Positions 4,397 to 60,788 of a stretch of 64,000 nt of DNA are shown here, piece by piece. Made by a program: the position numbers and the translations under genes. Source of the DNA: Paludibacter sp. (GTDB lineage: Bacteria > Bacteroidota > Bacteroidia > Bacteroidales > Paludibacteraceae); the NCBI GenBank assembly GCA_028692715.1, contig JAQUWU010000014.1, positions 24,115-88,114 on the forward strand, read 5' to 3'. The notes beneath the pieces were generated by a model that did not search any database, was not told the origin of the DNA, and worked only from the letters and a program-made list of their open reading frames with translations. Every line of letters begins with the position of its first letter. Positions within the stretch are counted from its first letter, which is position 1.

Positions 4397-6265
4397 ATGA
4401 GCAATTACACTATTTTGCAATTGAATGCGAAAGATTTGTCCGAACTTAAGGACATCGCAACAGAATTAGGTTTAAAAGTAACTAATTCAACTAAAAAAGA
4501 AACTCTGGTCTATGACATTCTGGACCAACAAGCTGTTGTAAATGCGCAACGCAAAACCAGCACCCTTGAAAATCAGTCGGCGGAACGAAAAAAACGACTT
4601 CGCGTACCGATTAAAAAGAATTCCGAACAAAAAGTATCATCCTCTGATAGTTCATCAACAACTCCCGTTGAAGATAAACCTATAAAAACAGAAGAAAAAA
4701 AAGTAATTAAAGAACCTGTAAAAAGGGAAATAATTAAAGTTGAAAAGGTAACCGAAGTAAAAGAAGTTGTGGCAGAGGAAAAACCTCAAGCAGCAGAAAA
4801 GAAAACAACAAGGAAACCTGCAAAAGCTAAGGCTAAGCCTAAAGTGGTTAGTCCTGCTACGGCAGTAAAACCCGAAGAGGAAAAAGCTGAAGTAAAAACT
4901 ACCGAAGTTCCAGTACCGGTTCCAACAAAAGTATTTGTTTTAGAAAACAAACAAAAAAAAGAAACTAAAGTTGAGGATGTTAAAAGTACTCCTGAAACTG
5001 TTTCAGAAGTGGCAACGGAGATTGTTCCTGAAGTCGTAAAAGTAAATGAACCTCGGGATTTAAAACCAAAAATCAACAATCACCAGAACAATACGAATCG
5101 TAATAAATTTAATAGTCATAAAGACAATAATGAAAAGCAGTTTGATTTTGACGGCATCCTGGATGGAACAGGAACGCTGGAAATGATGGCTGATGGGTAT
5201 GGTTTTCTTCGTTCTGCAGATTACAATTATCTTGCTTCACCTGACGACATTTATGTTTCTCAGTCCCAAATTAAACTTTTTGGATTAAAAACCGGAGATA
5301 CGGTATCGGGCGCTATTCGTCCACCAAAAGAAGGTGAAAAATACTTTCCTTTAATCAAAGTAGGTAAAATCAATGGTCGTTCACCTGAATATGTACGTGA
5401 CCGTGTTCCATTTGAACACCTCACTCCTCTTTTCCCTGACACAAAATTTAATTTGTGTAGTGGAAAAAACGATACATTATCAACTCGAATTGTTGATTTA
5501 TTTTCACCAATTGGTAAAGGTCAGCGTGGATTAATTGTGGCACAACCTAAAACCGGTAAAACCGTATTATTGAAAGAGATTGCCAATGCAATTGCTGCTA
5601 ATCATCCTGAAGTGTATATGATTGTTTTACTGATAGATGAACGTCCTGAAGAAGTAACAGACATGGCTCGTAGCGTACGTGCTGAAGTTGTTTCGTCTAC
5701 TTTTGACGAACCGGCAGAACGCCATGTGAAAGTTGCCAGTATGGTTCACGAAAAAGCAAAACGAATGGTTGAATGTGGTCAGGATGTTGTAATTCTATTA
5801 GACTCAATTACCCGTTTGGCACGTGCTTATAATACTGTTTCACCAGCTTCAGGAAAAATTCTTTCAGGGGGTGTGGATGCTAACGCACTACACAAGCCAA
5901 AACGATTCTTCGGAGCGGCTCGTAATATCGAAAATGGTGGTAGTTTGACCATTATTGCTACTGCATTAACTGAAACAGGTTCCAAAATGGATGAAGTTAT
6001 CTTCGAAGAATTTAAAGGGACAGGTAATATGGAACTTCAACTCGATCGTAAACTATCCAACAAACGTATTTTCCCTGCTGTTGATATTATGGCTTCGAGT
6101 ACACGTCGTGACGATTTATTACTGGATAAAGATACATTGAACCGTATGTGGATTTTGCGCCGTCATTTGGCTGACATGAACTCTATGGAAGCAATGGAAT
6201 TCCTGAAAGAAAGAATGGAAAGAACTGAAAATAATGATGAATTTCTCGTTTCGATGAACGGATAA
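4397..6265 (+). CDS. rho: Transcription termination factor Rho with extended charged insertion
   Basis: An RNA-dependent hexameric ATPase/helicase of 622 residues, against about 420 in E. coli. Residues 1-45 are the Rho N-terminal helical domain. Residues about 50-240 are a Lys/Glu/Val/Pro-rich low-complexity insertion, followed by an Asn-rich stretch ([12 protein letters not shown]). The cold-shock-like RNA-binding domain follows at about 250-325 ([10 protein letters not shown]). The ATPase core has Walker A at about 380-390 (PKTGKT) and Walker B at about 465 ([11 protein letters not shown]). Long N-terminal insertions are known in Rho of Bacteroidota, where they can help RNA binding or phase separation. 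It has a strong promoter and its own terminator, so it is monocistronic. Confidence 0.97.
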
Positions 6266-19996: not shown

Positions 19997-20035
19997 AGAA
20001 GGCTGGATCATCGAATTGATCCAGCCTTCTTGTTT
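19997..20035 (+). terminator. proS terminator
   Basis: AGAAGGCTGGATCA pairs perfectly with TGATCCAGCCTTCT around a six-base loop, followed by TGTTTT. The remainder of the 430-base gap 19977-20406 has no gene that I can support. Confidence 0.9.
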
Positions 20036-20352
20036 TAATAATACCTATTACTATATATCAATAATTTTCACAGACTGTATTTATATAGTGACCCAAAGCA
20101 ATTTTATAAATGTACTAATTTTAATGCCGATGCAAAACGGATAAATTGAACATTGAGACTAACTTGGCTGCAGTAGACAGTGTTGAAATTGAACTTCTAT
20201 GTATAAGAACTTACATCCTGCTAAATAAGTAATGAGAATAATATAATGTCTCATTAATAAACTCGTAATATGCTGCTTATCTTCTTTTTGTTAAATTGTA
20301 AATGCTACATTATTTAATGGTAAATACTTACACTGTTCAGTGCACAACAAAA

Positions 20353-23171: not shown

Positions 23172-23217
23172 TTTAAAATTTTATATAAAAGTTTTTTGTA
23201 CATGACAAAAAATAAAA

Positions 23218-23307
23218 CCTGCTTGCAGCAGGCAGGTTCCATTTCCTTTTTTTAATTTTGAAATACGACTTCCGAATAGCTATCGGGATTAAATTCTATT
23301 ACTTAAT
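23218..23307 (-). repeat. Inverted copy of the repeat block found at 60441-60530
   Basis: Read on the minus strand, 23307-23268 matches 60441-60480 at 37 of 40 positions, including the palindrome GATAGCTATTCGG. It is followed in both places by a spacer and then GGAACCTGCCTGCTGCA-GCAGG. The CCTGC...GCAGG part is itself a hairpin. Here it lies between the GNAT gene and the efflux adaptor gene. Confidence 0.7.
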
Positions 23308-24473: not shown

Positions 24474-27400
24474 TTAATTTGATAAATATATTTGATCTAG
24501 TAATATTTTATTGTATTCTAATACGTTATTTAGATAATCAAGTTTAATTTGCATAGCATTTTCGTAGCTGTAAACAAATTTAAAAAGATCAATTTCTCCA
24601 CGTTGAAAACTAGTAACAGTAGCTCTCAAGATTTCATCGTAAAGCTGCTTGCCCGAACGATTATAATTATCAATAAGTTCTTTATATTTAAAGGCTTCCA
24701 GTTTATAACCTTCAAATTTCATATTGAGTAAATTCAGTTCATTTTGAGTGAGTAATTGTTGTGCATTGAGAGCTAATTTAGCCGATTTAATTCGCGCTTT
24801 ATCACCCCAGAAAAATAAGGGAACTGCGACACCAACCTCAAAACCGTTGTAAAATTTAGCATTTGAGTAGCTGTTAGTTCCTCTAAAATAATTCAATGAA
24901 ATATCCGGCAAAAGCTTGTTTCGCTCAATATTCAATGCTGCTTCGCCCGATTTATCATTTAATTTCAGAAGACCAACAAACGGAGTTGAACTTGCATTAA
25001 TAACATCAATATTTGCAATGTCAATGTCAGTAGCTACATCAAATGAATCTTCTGAATTCATAAGCGTTTTGAGCTTTTGGTACGATTGTTCGATACTATA
25101 TTTCACACTCTTTAAACTAACGCTAATCTGTTGTCGTTTTGCCTTAATATTCAATAGGTCGAGTTGACTGAAATCGCCCAGATTTCGTTTTATTTCAGCA
25201 TTTGACTGTAATTTATCATATAAACTGTCAATAGCTTCATAAATTCTTTCTTTATTGCTAAAATGTTGAAGTTCATAATAGATGAATGAAATATTTTTTT
25301 TCAAATTTTGTTTTTGGATTTCCAGGTTCATTTCAGCTTTTGAAACGTCTATTTTTTTTGCTTTATATTCAGCACCATACAAAGTCGGAAAACTAAAATT
25401 CTGATTCACACTCCAAACCTTAAGCGGATATCCATTTTCAGCTATATTGTTTTCGTCGACACCGTAACTTACGCCCATTTTATCAAATGCAAAAGCAGTT
25501 GTTTTCAACACTTTACTCTCCTCTACTTTCAAAGAATACGCTTTAATTTCTTTATTATTTATCAGTGCAATTTGAATCACTTCGTTTAAATTCAATTTAT
25601 TTTGCTGAGCAAAAACTGAGGTCAATGGAAAAAGCAATAAGAATAATAACAGCAATGTATTTGAGCGAATTATTTTAAAAGGGAAAAATTTGACTCCTTT
25701 TATATTATTAAATATCACATACATAAGTGGCAATGCAATCATGGTAAGCATGGTGGAAGTAACCAGTCCGCCAATGACAACTGTTGCCAACGGACGTTGA
25801 ACCTCTGCTCCTGCCCCAGTAGAAATAGCCATAGGTAAAAATCCCATTGCAGCAGCAGCGGCTGTAAGCATAACCGGACGTAAGCGGTCTTTTGTTCCGG
25901 TCATTATCAATTCTTTCATATTTGTCATACCACCATGCTGTAATTCTTTCAAATGTTCAATTAACACAATGCCATTAAGTACTGCAATACCAAAAAGGGC
26001 AATAAAACCAACACCAGCAGAAACACTAAATGGTAATCCTCTAATCCATAAAAACACGACTCCACCAACTGTTGCTAAAGGAATGGCCGTAAAAATCAAG
26101 ATGGCATCTTTCAAGGATTTAAAAGCGAAATGTAGAAAGATAAAAATCAATAAAAGGGCTATTGGTACAGCAAGCATCAGTCTGTTGGTAGCATTTTGAA
26201 GATTTTCGAACTGTCCACCATAAGTTATATAATTCCCAGGTTTTAACGTTATATTCTTAGAAATAACCGATTGAATATCTTCCACAACCGATTGTAAATC
26301 ACGGTTTCGGGCATTAACACTAACTACTACTCTACGTTGAGTATTTTCCCTTGAAATTTTTGCAGGACCAACAGCATATTGAATATCGGCAAGTTCTTCG
26401 AAAGGAACCTGTTGCCCATTTTTTAGTGGTACATAAAGTTGTTTAATGTCTTCGATATCGGTTCTGCTTTGTTTTTGAAATCGCATCACCATATCAAATC
26501 TTTTTTCACCTTCGAAAACAACGCCTGCTACCTCACCTCCAAAAGCGGTTGATAAATAATTATTTAACGTTTTAATATCCAATCCATAATGAGCTACTTT
26601 CTGACGATTATACTCAATTTTTATTTGTGGAAGTCCGGCCGTTTTTTCAAGAATCACATCTCCGGCTCCCGGAACATCCGAAATTAAGTTTTTAATTTCA
26701 AGGGCTTTCTGATTAATATAATCAAGATTGTCACCAAATATTTTAATCGCAATATCCGAACGAACACCTGTTATTAATTCATTGAAACGCATTTCGATGG
26801 GTTGTGTAAATTCATATTCGACACCAGGAATTACCGATAAGGCTTCTTTAAACTTTTCGGCTAATTCATCCTTCGATTTTGCATTTACCCATGTATCACG
26901 TGGCTTTAGTTTAATAATCATATCAATTTCTTCCATCGACATGGGGTCGGTTGGGACTTCAGCAGCTCCTATTCTACATACTATTTGATCTACTTCAGGG
27001 AATTTATCGATGAGGATATTTTCCATTTGAGTAGTCATTTCAACCGTTTTACTGAGAGAGGTACCGGTTTTTAGTACAGGTTGAATTACAAAATCACCTT
27101 CGTCGAGTGTTGGAACAAATTCACCACCAATACGAGTAAACAAAAACACAGTAAAAACTAAAGATACTACTGCAGCTCCCAATACAATGCGCTTATTATT
27201 ATACGACCATTTTATAACAGGAGAATAACTGTTATAGGCCACCTTCATTATCCAATCGGAAATATTTCGTTTCGTTTTCTTTTCGGGTTTTAAAAAGAGA
27301 GATGCTGCTACAGGCAACCAAGTCAACCCTAAAATCATAGCTCCAACAATTGCAAATGAAAAAGAAAGTGCCATTGGGCGGAACATTTTACCTTCAACTC

Positions 27401-28815
27401 CGCTTAAGGATAAAATAGGAATAAATACAATAAGAATAATAACCTGACCAAAAATTGCAGATTTCATCATTTTAGATGCACCCTGAAAAGAGATTCGATC
27501 CATTAATGTTTGCTTAACTTCTCTCGGTGAACCTAAAATTTCATTTTTCTGAACAGTTATCCGCAAAGCTATAAATTCGACTATAATAACCGCCCCATCT
27601 ATTATTATCCCAAAGTCGAGTGCTCCCAAACTCATTAAATTTGCATCAATTCCAAAAAAGTACATCATTGTTATGGTGAATAATAATGCCAACGGAATCA
27701 TTGAAGCTATCACTAATGCAGACCTTAGATTTCCAAGTAATAAAATGACCGTTAGCATCACTATTATTGCTCCCAAAATAAGATTTTCGGCAACAGTAAA
27801 CGATGTTTTGGATATGAGTTCACTACGTTCCAGAATTGGATTAATGTAAACTCCTTCGGGTAGATTTTTCTGTATTTCGGTAACACGTTTTTTTACTTCG
27901 TCAATAACTTCTTTTGAATTAGCGTTTTTAAGCATCATTATTTGCCCTAACACTGTTTCGCCTTTTCCATTGGAAGTTATTGCACCAAACCTATTAGCGT
28001 AACCAAATTTCACATCCGCAATATCTTTAAGCAATATAGGAACGTCAGAATTAGTAGCAACAACAATATTTTCGATATCAGAAAGGGATTTTACCTGACC
28101 ATCGCCACGGATAAAATAACTTTGATTCGTTTTTTCAATGTATGCACCGCCAGAAATACTGTTGTTTGACTCAATAGCATTAAAAACATCCATCAACGTG
28201 AGATTCATTCCTTTAAGACGAGTAGGGTTTATGGCTATTTCGTATTGTTTCAAATAGCCCCCCCCAACTGTTAATTTCTACAACACCATTAATGCCAGAT
28301 AACCTACGTTTTACCACCCAATCCTGAATGGTTCTTAAATCCATGGCTGAATACTTGCCTTCGTAACCCGGTTTAATATCTAGCGTATACTGATAAATTT
28401 CACCTAAACCAGTCGTTATAGGTCCCATTTCGGGCACACCAAAACCTTCAGGAATATTGGCAGAAGCACTTTTTATTTTTTCGGCGATCAATTGGCGTGG
28501 CAAGTATGTGCCAATATTCTCTTTAAAAACGACTGTCACTACTGAAAGTCCAAATTTTGAAATTGATCGAATTTCTTCCACTCCGGGTAAATTCGCCATT
28601 TCCATTTCAACGGGTGCTGTAATAAACTGTTCGATTTCCTGTGTGGATAAATTTCCGGAAGTAGTAATTACCTGAACCTGATTATTTGTTATGTCGGGTA
28701 CGGCACCTACAGGAATCTTATATACTGAATATAAGCCAAATCCAGCTATTGTTAAAGTAAAAAGAATTACTATAAGTTTATTTTTAATGCTAAAATCCAA
28801 TATTTTATCTAACAT
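24474..28815 (-). pseudogene. CusA/CzcA-type RND metal efflux pump fused to a TolC-like channel, frame broken at a C8 run
   Basis: The N-terminal part (28815 to about 28258) starts MLDKILDFSIKNK and leads into NSWGG. The frame then shifts at a run of eight C (28258-28265; G8 on the coding strand). With seven bases it reads SWGGYLKQYEIAI, exactly as in intact pumps. The total length of 4342 bases is one over a multiple of three, and the repaired protein would be 1446 residues. Residues to about 1050 are the pump with its membrane helices; after FFPFKIIRSNTLLLL an internal signal-like segment (LLFPLTSVFAQQ) starts an outer-membrane efflux (TolC-type) domain of about 390 residues. Pump-channel fusions of this kind are known in Bacteroidota. 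Export of Cu/Ag or Zn/Co/Cd is inferred from the family. Confidence 0.85.
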
Positions 28816-32990: not shown

Positions 32991-33455
32991 TTACCAGTCA
33001 CCCGATTGTTTACCGGTTACCGATTCTATTTCAAGTTTCAATAAAGTCATTTTCGAAAGTGAGTCTTCATCATATTTCAAATCACCCTTTGCACCGTATT
33101 TTTGCATGATTAAATTAAGACCGTTTATTTTAGACGTTCTATCATTCTCAATTGTAATCACTCCTCTACCCATAGCCGATCTATACTTAAGAGTCCAGTT
33201 ACAGGCTTTTTCATCTTCAATTATTTCGGTGTAATATTCTATTTCAAAACTTACCCGGTTATTTTGATTAATCAAATCCATTTTTCGTCCATGATGAGCA
33301 GAATGAACATAAATGCAGCCATCGGAGTAAGCAAAATTTAAAGGAACTATATAAGCTTCATCATTATCAACAAAACCAAATCTACAGATTCTGGATTTAG
33401 TCAAAATTTCTTTTATTACATTTTCGTCTTCTATTTCTTTGTCTAGTCTTCTCAT
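32991..33455 (-). CDS. Pyridoxamine 5'-phosphate oxidase-like (NimA-type) flavoprotein
   Basis: A split-barrel flavoprotein of 154 residues. RICRFGFVDNDEAYIVPLNF and YVHSAHHGRKMDLI are typical of the NimA / 5-nitroimidazole resistance-like subgroup, with the His-His pair near the flavin site. Most members are general FMN- or F420-binding reductases. A nitroimidazole resistance role cannot be claimed from sequence. First gene of a possible two-gene unit with the homocysteine methyltransferase. Confidence 0.82.
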   Translation of the reverse strand: MRRLDKEIEDENVIKEILTKSRICRFGFVDNDEAYIVPLNFAYSDGCIYVHSAHHGRKMDLINQNNRVSFEIEYYTEIIEDEKACNWTLKYRSAMGRGVITIENDRTSKINGLNLIMQKYGAKGDLKYDEDSLSKMTLLKLEIESVTGKQSGDW

Positions 33456-33619
33456 AAATCTAATTTTTTAAAATTGTCTAATAAGGAACAAACAATGAAG
33501 TTACAAAAAAGTTTTAATCAGTTAATTTATTAGTATCTTCAACTCGAAAATAGAAGATATAAGTATTTACCATTAAACAATGGAAGTAAATTGAACAAAT
33601 TAATGTACCATTAAATATT

Positions 33620-33810
33620 AATAGAACGCTGATTTTCGCTGATTTATCGGAAAATGAAGGATAAAACAAAACGGATTTTTCTTGCCTTCGGCAAGATGAT
33701 TAAGACGCAACTATCTGTAAATCATTCCGATTTATCGGAATTCAAATCCGTTTTTTCAAATCCACTCTATCAGTGAAAATTGCGCCTGCCTGTCGCAGGC
33801 AGGTTCTATT
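33620..33810. repeat. 191-bp inverted-repeat element with internal hairpins (copy A)
   Basis: It is bounded by AATAGAAC (33620-33627) and GTTCTATT (33803-33810). Inside each end lies a second inverted pair, GATTTTCGCTGAT and ATCAGTGAAAAT. Three hairpins follow: CTTGCC/GGCAAG (33681-33695), TTCCGA/TCGGAA (33725-33740) and CCTGCCTG/CAGGCAGG (about 33785-33803). A diverged copy lies inverted at 60507-60695 with the same order of parts. It is the main content of the 504-base gap 33456-33959; the rest shows nothing. Confidence 0.8.
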
Positions 33811-33959
33811 CTTAAATATTTTCATGCAAAATACGACATTATTTGTTTTCAATTACTTAGCATTTACAATTTAACAAAAAGAAGCTAAACAGTACATTAC
33901 AGGTTAGTTAATGCGACATTATATTATTCTCATTACTTATTTTTAATGATTATGATTAT

Positions 33960-57139: not shown

Positions 57140-57321
57140 GAGTCCACTCCGAAAAAGAGTAGAACCTGCCTACAGCAGGTAGGCGCAAATAACACTGAAA
57201 ATCGCAAATAATCGCAAATCTATAAATATTTATAAATCAATAGAATATCTGAATTTTATTTTGTGTTAACTTGCGTTATTTGCGTTATTTGTGTTCAAAA
57301 ATTACTTTTCGGAGTACACTC
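57140..57321. repeat. 182-bp element with 16-bp terminal inverted repeats (GAGTCCACTCCGAAAA family)
   Basis: The left end GAGTCCACTCCGAAAA (57140-57155) and the right end TTTTCGGAGTACACTC (57306-57321) are inverted with 14 of 16 matching. Inside are the hairpin CCTGCCTACAGCAGGTAGG, the segment GCGCAAATAACACT and, near the right end, TTGCGTTATTTGTGTT, an inverse of the AAATAAC segment. The left terminal repeat recurs alone at 63877-63892. A degraded left half is at 10009-10078. Confidence 0.75.
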
Positions 57322-57357
57322 ATATAATAAAAGAAAATTGTTTATCCCTCCTCCCCC

Positions 57358-57547: not shown

Positions 57548-57763
57548 CTAATAATCATCTGCTTTAAACCCTGTATCATCTGCTTTAAACCCTGTATCAT
57601 CTGCTTTACTCTTCATATCACATGATATGGCATCCATATCAGTTGCTTTACTCTTCATATCACATGATATAGCATCCATATCAGTTGCTTTACTCTTCAT
57701 ATCACATGATATAGCATCCATATCAGTTGCTTTTTGTTTCATATCACATTTTTTTACAAACAC
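57548..57763 (-). repeat. Tandem-repeat array (42-bp and 21-bp units), possibly translated on the minus strand
   Basis: Two unit types lie head to tail. Three to four copies of a 42-bp unit encode CDMKSKATDMDAIS on the minus strand; they are followed by two to three copies of a 21-bp unit encoding ADDTGFK. Both lengths are multiples of three and the frame is open from 57763 to 57548 (71 codons, MFVKKCDMKQKATD...). The units differ by single bases. It may be a small repetitive protein or just a minisatellite. The DNA unit contains ATATCACATGATAT, a near-palindrome. Nearby, TAGACCCTGAATAGACCCTA is a further short direct repeat (57530-57549). Confidence 0.65.
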
Positions 57764-60440: not shown

Positions 60441-60695
60441 ATTAAGTAATAGAATTCAATCTCGATAGCTATTCGGGAGTGGTATTCTTTTTATTGAAAA
60501 CAAAGAAATGGAACCTGCCTGCTGCAGGCAGGCACAGATTTTCGCTAATTAGGCGGATTTGAAAAAAGGATTTTAATTTCGACAAGTCGAAATGATTTTC
60601 AGACACTTATATATTAATCTTCTCGCCGAAGGCGAGAGAAATCCTATTTAAAATCCGTTATCTTCAGCTAGATCAGCGAAAATCAGCGTGCTATT
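60441..60695. repeat. Repeat block and 189-bp inverted-repeat element (copy B)
   Basis: 60441-60480 is the mirror copy of 23268-23307. From 60507 (AATGGAAC) to 60695 (ending GTGCTATT) lies a diverged, inverted copy of the element at 33620-33810. The order is: CCTGCCTGC/GCAGGCAGG hairpin, GATTTTCGCT, the hairpin TTTCGA/TCGAAA (60577-60592), the hairpin CTCGCC/GGCGAG (60622-60636), then AGCGAAAATC. Stem bases differ from copy A in compensating pairs. It occupies most of the 428-base gap between the receptor gene and the small upstream gene. Confidence 0.8.
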
Positions 60696-60788
60696 TATTA
60701 CAAATAAAATAGTAAAATTTATTATTCCATTTACTTAAGTTTCAGATAAATATATTTTATCTGAAATCATAAAAAGAACCTAAAATAT

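Follow-up and report, generated by a model that had tools for sequence, protein, structure and literature searches.

What kind of element is the non-coding sequence that stands twice, in opposite orientations, in the 64,000-nucleotide stretch of Paludibacter sp. DNA analysed here (the window)? The sequence-only reading had presented copy A (33620-33810) and copy B (60507-60695) as an undescribed element with matching ends, and had taken the paired base changes in two internal hairpins as a sign that the folded form is selected, either as RNA or as single-stranded DNA during movement. The likeness of the two copies was borne out: they align on opposite strands with 77.9% identity over 195 alignment columns (E 1.7e-38), lie between ORFs and are overlapped by no ORF of at least 80 aa. 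The paired changes are present as named, hairpin 1 reading CTTGCC/GGCAAG in copy A and CTCGCC/GGCGAG in copy B, and hairpin 2 reading TTCCGA/TCGGAA and TTTCGA/TCGAAA, respectively. When folds were compared with those of dinucleotide shuffles, copy A gave a z of -6.06 (1 of 200 shuffles equally good) and copy B a z of -5.23 (0 of 200). The similarity at the ends is likewise real, but the ends that had been named are inner ones, the complete units reaching 33585-33857 and 60443-60737. An ORF at 32991-33455, with its 5' end toward copy A, resembles the NimABCDEF family only distantly, scoring 71.7 bits against a curated cut-off of 260. The parts of the two copies, and of a related fragment, are as follows.

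33583-33859, plus strand: copy A, a probable IS630-type MITE; the element itself occupies 33585-33857 (273 bp), with flanking dinucleotides GA on the left and TA on the right
33585-33619, plus strand: left outer arm and TIR of copy A (AGTAAATTGAACAAATTAATGT...)
33620-33810, plus strand: core of copy A, the element of the earlier reading, a gene-less stem-loop
33680-33696, plus strand: hairpin 1 of copy A (TCTTGCC-TTC-GGCAAGA)
33697-33724, plus strand: linker from hairpin 1 to hairpin 2 of copy A, the site of the GxxExxY gene in gene-bearing relatives
33725-33740, plus strand: hairpin 2 of copy A (TTCCGA-TTTA-TCGGAA)
33785-33803, plus strand: CCTGCCTGTCGCAGGCAGG palindrome of copy A, present in the longer subtype and missing from the symmetric subtype
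33811-33857, plus strand: right outer arm and TIR of copy A (...ACATTATTTGTTTTCAATTACT)
60443-60737, minus strand: copy B, a probable MITE of a related subfamily, TA included at both ends
60507-60695, minus strand: core of copy B, the element of the earlier reading
60621-60637, minus strand: hairpin 1 of copy B (TCTCGCC-TTC-GGCGAGA)
60577-60592, minus strand: hairpin 2 of copy B (TTTCGA-CTTG-TCGAAA)
60514-60532, minus strand: CCTGCCTG palindrome of copy B
23214-23305, plus strand: right end of a B-type MITE, present as a fragment with palindrome, right arm and TIR

The earlier reading had counted two copies and had proposed a nucleotide search for more in the genome and its relatives. The host genome (4.85 Mb in 122 contigs) turned out to hold 66 left ends, as recognised by a 23-base end pattern with at most 3 mismatches, against none for the reversed pattern; 40 places scored at 97-100% identity, these being the best 40 of 135 first-look candidates. 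Comparison of the first 30 loci, minus one in which the anchor was not found (L011), showed that in all 29 conservation extends past the core by about 40 bp on the left and 49 bp on the right. The conserved element starts with TAAGTAAATGGAACAAATTAATGT and ends, on the opposite strand, with TAAGTAATTGAAAACAAATAATGTCG, so that the two ends form imperfect TIRs. A broader TIR pattern occurs at 111 places in this genome versus 0 for the control, and at 14 versus 3 in another genome (G016). The 42 two-ended copies examined measure from 120 to 279 bp. Nineteen of them, about 250-265 bp long, make up a symmetric subtype whose members share a mean pairwise identity of 97.9% (108 equal-length pairs); most of the others are 268-279 bp long and contain the CCTGCCTG palindrome as copy A does, and deleted forms of 120 bp (two copies) and 190 bp (one copy) are also found. 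Copies A and B thus show the traits of IS630-type MITEs in being small, numerous and devoid of a transposase gene.

The target-site duplication could be read from a nested insertion. Copy A lies inside a second mini-transposon, designated type D, of which the window also has an intact example:

33560-33939, plus strand: type D MITE, broken up by copy A
20226-20330, plus strand: uninterrupted type D MITE that serves as empty site for copy A and likewise for an A-type copy at another locus (L027)

Once copy A and one dinucleotide are removed, the type D flanks align with the type D element of L027, itself broken by an A-type copy at a different position. The intact element represents the empty site of both insertions, and both occurred at TA. 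Of 43 copies in this genome, 41 have TA on the left, one (copy A) GA and one TT; on the right, 37 have TA and 6 have TC, the latter spread across subtypes. The nested insertion with its empty site and the dinucleotide counts both show a TA duplication, as in IS630-type MITEs.

The imperfect TIRs, the TA duplication, the near-identical copies and the existence of IS630 loci with TIRs of the same pattern identify copies A and B as apparent non-autonomous MITEs of the IS630/Tc1-mariner type, probably moved by an IS630-type transposase. The genome has a single locus matching PF13358 (L031), in which an HTH ORF overlaps a DDE_3 ORF; the MITE-type pattern is found at both of its ends, the match to the MITE TIRs being moderate only. 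PF13358 matches occur in 18 of 48 genus genomes. At 5 of 30 such loci examined (L031, L120, L122, L123 and L128) a TIR pair is present with a spacing of 1.07-1.11 kb, the background of the pattern being 0.13 per kb in mononucleotide shuffles; the other 25 (fragments, contig ends and members of other groups) have no pair. From the ends, the duplication and the relatives, one would expect such a transposase, acting in trans, to cut out the double-stranded element and paste it at TA. The actual mover may be lost or unsampled. IS1595 was also considered as the mover and rejected: PF12762 is represented in this genome by one locus with two internal stops, and no 8-bp duplication was seen by eye at the MITE ends. 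In one genome, IS1595 transposase pieces lie within a MITE-like frame (L104, 1500-2630), and in another an IS1595-like start adjoins a MITE at the end of L085, as the sequence was read; both are read as insertions into MITEs.

Extending the search beyond this genome, with the best 7 candidates scored per genome, gave full-element matches in 35 of 100 related genomes: 31 of the 48 from the genus, counting the present one, and four, all weak, from outside it. In a collection of named genomes 46 stretches matched; 45 of the 46 titles name a Bacteroidota group, 20 of them Paludibacter, and one a Magasanikbacteria bin. No match to copy A was found in plasmid and phage collections. The 51 core matches in the named genomes have IS630-type ends on both sides in 10 cases, on one side in 6 and on neither in 35, counts that are pattern-based and include some matches at contig ends. 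Because 35 of 51 cores carry no IS630-type end by this pattern, the MITE is seemingly only one among the settings of the core. At L092, a MITE before the core at position 693 has IS630-type ends that, by eye, enclose a different word-stem (CTTTGTGGC...GCCACAAA); IS630-type frames therefore hold more than one type of stem.

Another setting of the core is provided by genes of the GxxExxY nuclease family (PF13366, PDDEXK_3), matched in 39 of 48 genus genomes. We collected 75 GxxExxY loci, mostly from the top of the match list, 73 of which have at least 150 bp on both sides. The D and E-x-K residues of the PD-(D/E)XK type are invariant in all 75. Within 300-bp flanks, an inverted repeat surrounds the gene with E<=0.01 at 61 of the 73 loci, with E<=1e-4 at 46 and with E<=1e-6 at 27, leaving 12 without one at E<=0.01. 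The corresponding figures were 38, 1 and 0 for 600 random places and 10, 0 and 0 for 88 ORFs of 300-700 bp, both controls being drawn from this genome only. The stem arms at the GxxExxY loci are built of tandem words of about 8-11 nt (GCTGATTTTC, CGCAAAGACG, CACATAGG, GCAAATTA and others). Over 53 loci, similarity of words correlates with similarity of proteins (r 0.55, 0 of 5000 permutations); the correlation falls to r 0.27 (0 of 5000) for pairs below 70% identity and to r 0.13 (1 of 5000) for pairs below 50%, and co-descent of gene and stem accounts for part of it.

A profile of 19 gene-less cores, built with the L116 rows left out, matches 12 of the 75 GxxExxY loci versus 1 of 60 leuD or PF05635 loci. 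At six of the 75 the two halves of the profile flank the gene (L217, L228, L234, L243, L247 and L249), and no IS630 end was recognised by pattern at these six; at six more a full core stands beside the gene (L116, L218, L221, L244, L245 and L267). The split loci L217, L243, L247 and L249 share one order of parts (arms, hairpin 1, GATT, gene, AATC, hairpin 2, arms), with the gene occupying the site of the gene-less linker; a named record of the same place as L217 (L163) likewise has an intact GxxExxY gene between core arms. L116, in this genome, combines one GxxExxY gene with three cores around it. The window copies have the arms and hairpins of the gene-bearing stems, the GxxExxY gene being absent from the loop. 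Since a linker of about 28 nt stands where the relatives hold the gene, the window copies are gene-less forms and not full members of the GxxExxY stem-loop group. With good though not complete confidence, we read them as gene-less GxxExxY-type stems packaged in IS630 MITEs and probably sharing the double-stranded mobility of the IS630 type. Gene-less stems would have been caught inside a MITE and amplified along with it; the gene may have been lost from such stems or gained by them. The core links the GxxExxY family, whose function is unknown, to a nucleic-acid structure whose sequence tracks the protein clade, and it offers a ready test substrate.

The paired hairpin changes were followed across 22 cores, to which the structure was assigned by hand; RNAalifold, run on the same alignment, recovered nothing beyond hairpin 2 and short local stems. 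With this structure, 86.8% of 740 cells are paired. Paired cells, doubly changed cells and the covariation score all exceed every one of 500 shuffles and every slid control, and the numbers of doubly changed pairs and of pair types do not stand above the shuffles (257 and 337 of 500, respectively, match the observed values). An arm-swap test was applied to the 19 divergent cores, three near-duplicate rows (L028 and two from L116) being left out. Hairpins 1 and 2 pair much better when each keeps its own arms, a mean pairing energy as good as the observed one turning up in none of 20,000 permutations; the long stems do not, as 7918, 1282 and 1424 of 20,000 permutations are equally good. Hairpin 2 has double-sided changes in four of its six pairs, and 94.7% of its cells pair. 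Much of the variation in hairpin 1 consists of one whole hairpin replacing another, the types being CTTGCC-TTC-GGCAAG, CCCCGATAAATCGGGG, GTCATGCAAGCATGAC and CGCCTTCGGCG. Together, the arm-swap and exchange results argue that the hairpins are maintained as hairpins and that the long stem is conserved but not covarying. The covariation read earlier from two copies accordingly holds for the two small hairpins and is not supported for the long stems. That the folded form is selected fits the hairpin result over 19 cores but does not follow from it: covariation can also come from copying between the arms of a palindrome and is not proof of selection. If the fold is kept for a function, it most likely acts in RNA, through RNase III-type processing or termination as in the intervening sequences of 23S rRNA, or as the stem recognised by the GxxExxY protein.

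Whether the small palindromes form a dispersed family of their own was examined in the window and 12 stretches of 20 kb, together 304 kb. Five places have the CCTGCCTG type, and four of these lie within recognised elements; the CCCGATAGCTATCGGG and GTCATGC types were not found in the 304 kb; two short CCGAT types, at 7 and 4 places, occur outside recognised elements as well and are too short to judge. The window also has, at 19997-20030, a hairpin with a perfectly paired stem of 14 bp and a loop of 6 bases (AGAAGGCTGGATCA...).

Arm copying is central to the alternative that survives best, in which the copies are plain IS630-derived MITEs with a palindromic interior that arose by itself; the likeness to GxxExxY stems would then be convergence of short words, and the hairpin covariation the product of copying between arms at replication, with no selection. 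The lack of significant arm-specific covariation in the long stems agrees with such an origin, as do the wholesale swapping of palindromes and the make-up of the arms, whose short repeated words converge easily. We nevertheless consider it unlikely, for the gene-bearing stems share not only words but also the order of parts, and the core is found split by the gene at one set of six loci and adjoining it at another. Less probable still is a dedicated structured RNA, a regulator or terminator spread on the MITE and retained because it serves the host where it has inserted. The strong folds and the covarying hairpins suit an RNA, and a terminator-like stem with a T tail lies at 33784-33804 (2 found versus 0.2 expected); however, the neighbours of the copies are many and varied (29 tandem, 8 divergent and 4 convergent ORF pairs at the 41 copies with an ORF on both sides), and Rfam returned no family at gathering score in the 64-kb window and nothing above threshold around copy A, where the matches were all sub-threshold. 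A search of eight related loci gave one Rfam match, DUF805b in L088, outside the core. Movement as single-stranded DNA, which the earlier reading had entertained and which an IS200/IS605 or REP/RAYT-type hairpin element would use, is scarcely credible in spite of the CCTGCCTG palindrome close to one end of the core, as elements of those groups are not known to have TIRs or target duplications, and the TIRs at both ends and the TA duplication seen here point to a DDE transposase acting on double-stranded DNA.

As to novelty, the MITE part of the gene-less GxxExxY-type stem in its IS630 frame is of a known kind. The interest lies in the core: no description of gene-less or of GxxExxY stem-loop elements was found in the literature searched, a scope outside which subscription journals and preprints fell. 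Correia-type elements belong with IS630. Those of Neisseria resemble the window copies in being short and non-coding, with TIRs, a TA duplication and possibly more than 100 copies, and stem-loop transcripts of MITEs are reported; they differ in their TIRs, and the part of the source consulted mentions no interior of the GxxExxY stem type (PMC10969869). BrickBuilt of Porphyromonas gingivalis is also a Bacteroidales MITE, with internal repeats predicted to form long stem-loops and with MITE239 nested in one copy; its TIRs, in contrast, are like those of the IS5 family, its repeats are 23-nt tandem ones, and no gene-bearing counterpart is mentioned in the sections consulted (PMC4596501). MITECca01 of Cardinium is likewise a MITE from the Bacteroidota, measures about 240 bp and has parental IS copies; it belongs instead to the IS982 family, and the excerpt used does not mention an internal stem element (PMC9769881). 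Intervening sequences of 23S rRNA with an S23/four-helix-bundle ORF share the long stem, the small ORF in the loop and the sporadic presence, at least in the passages drawn upon; the window copies, unlike them, lie between protein genes and have no ORF, and their gene-bearing relatives encode PF13366, not PF05635 (PMC4990558). Copies A and B contain no PF05635 ORF in the loop and, standing between ORFs in a window free of Rfam matches at gathering score, are not located in a 23S rRNA helix.

Stems of this general build also occur between genes of operons. Of 30 leuC-leuD junctions in the genus (L275-L304), 12 are nearly empty (18-34 bp), 11 hold a GxxExxY element, four a PF05635-type element with TGCCAAT words (two assigned by Pfam and two by 91-93% identity), and three are longer but gene-less (129-169 bp, stem-like by eye). 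Judged from these counts, the junction is a hotspot in different members of the genus. PF05635 itself is matched in 45 of 48 genus genomes, and inverted repeats flank 23 of 30 PF05635 loci at E<=1e-4. The same holds for 3 of 8 plasmid GxxExxY loci from other groups. On a Sphingomonas plasmid (L340, 883-1311), fabD and fabG are separated by a GxxExxY gene whose stem is made of CGCGAAGG words. The leuC-leuD, PF05635 and plasmid data support, without proving it, the idea that such stems are gained and lost at intergenic sites, whether or not they carry a gene. A broader proposal, which we put forward tentatively and hold at slightly under even chances, is that stems of tandem 8-11-nt words, whether the loop is empty or holds a gene for a GxxExxY nuclease or a four-helix-bundle IVP, form one unrecognised class of mobile stem-loops that moves between operon genes, as at leuC-leuD and at fabD/fabG on the Sphingomonas plasmid; each GxxExxY clade would recognise its own words, and the stem in the window would have escaped its gene by way of an IS630 MITE. 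The core also suggests a broader intergenic class of stem-loops, of which the 23S rRNA intervening sequences may be the most familiar example.

Other features were noticed in the window. At 57140-57325 a CCTGCCTA palindrome and GCAAAT words are enclosed by an inverted frame (ACTCCGAAAAG...CTTTTCGGAGT), which looks like a further word-stem, framed differently, and at 57560-57760, by eye, a unit of about 50 bp is repeated in tandem and in direct orientation (CATATCACATGATATAGCATCCATATCAGTTGCTTTACTCTT...). An ORF of 1259 aa (24474-28253) combines an RND transporter of the CusA/CzcA type and, near its end, a weak match of the TolC type. The Rho factor at 4397-6265 is 622 aa long against a profile of 413 positions, which leaves about 200 extra residues.
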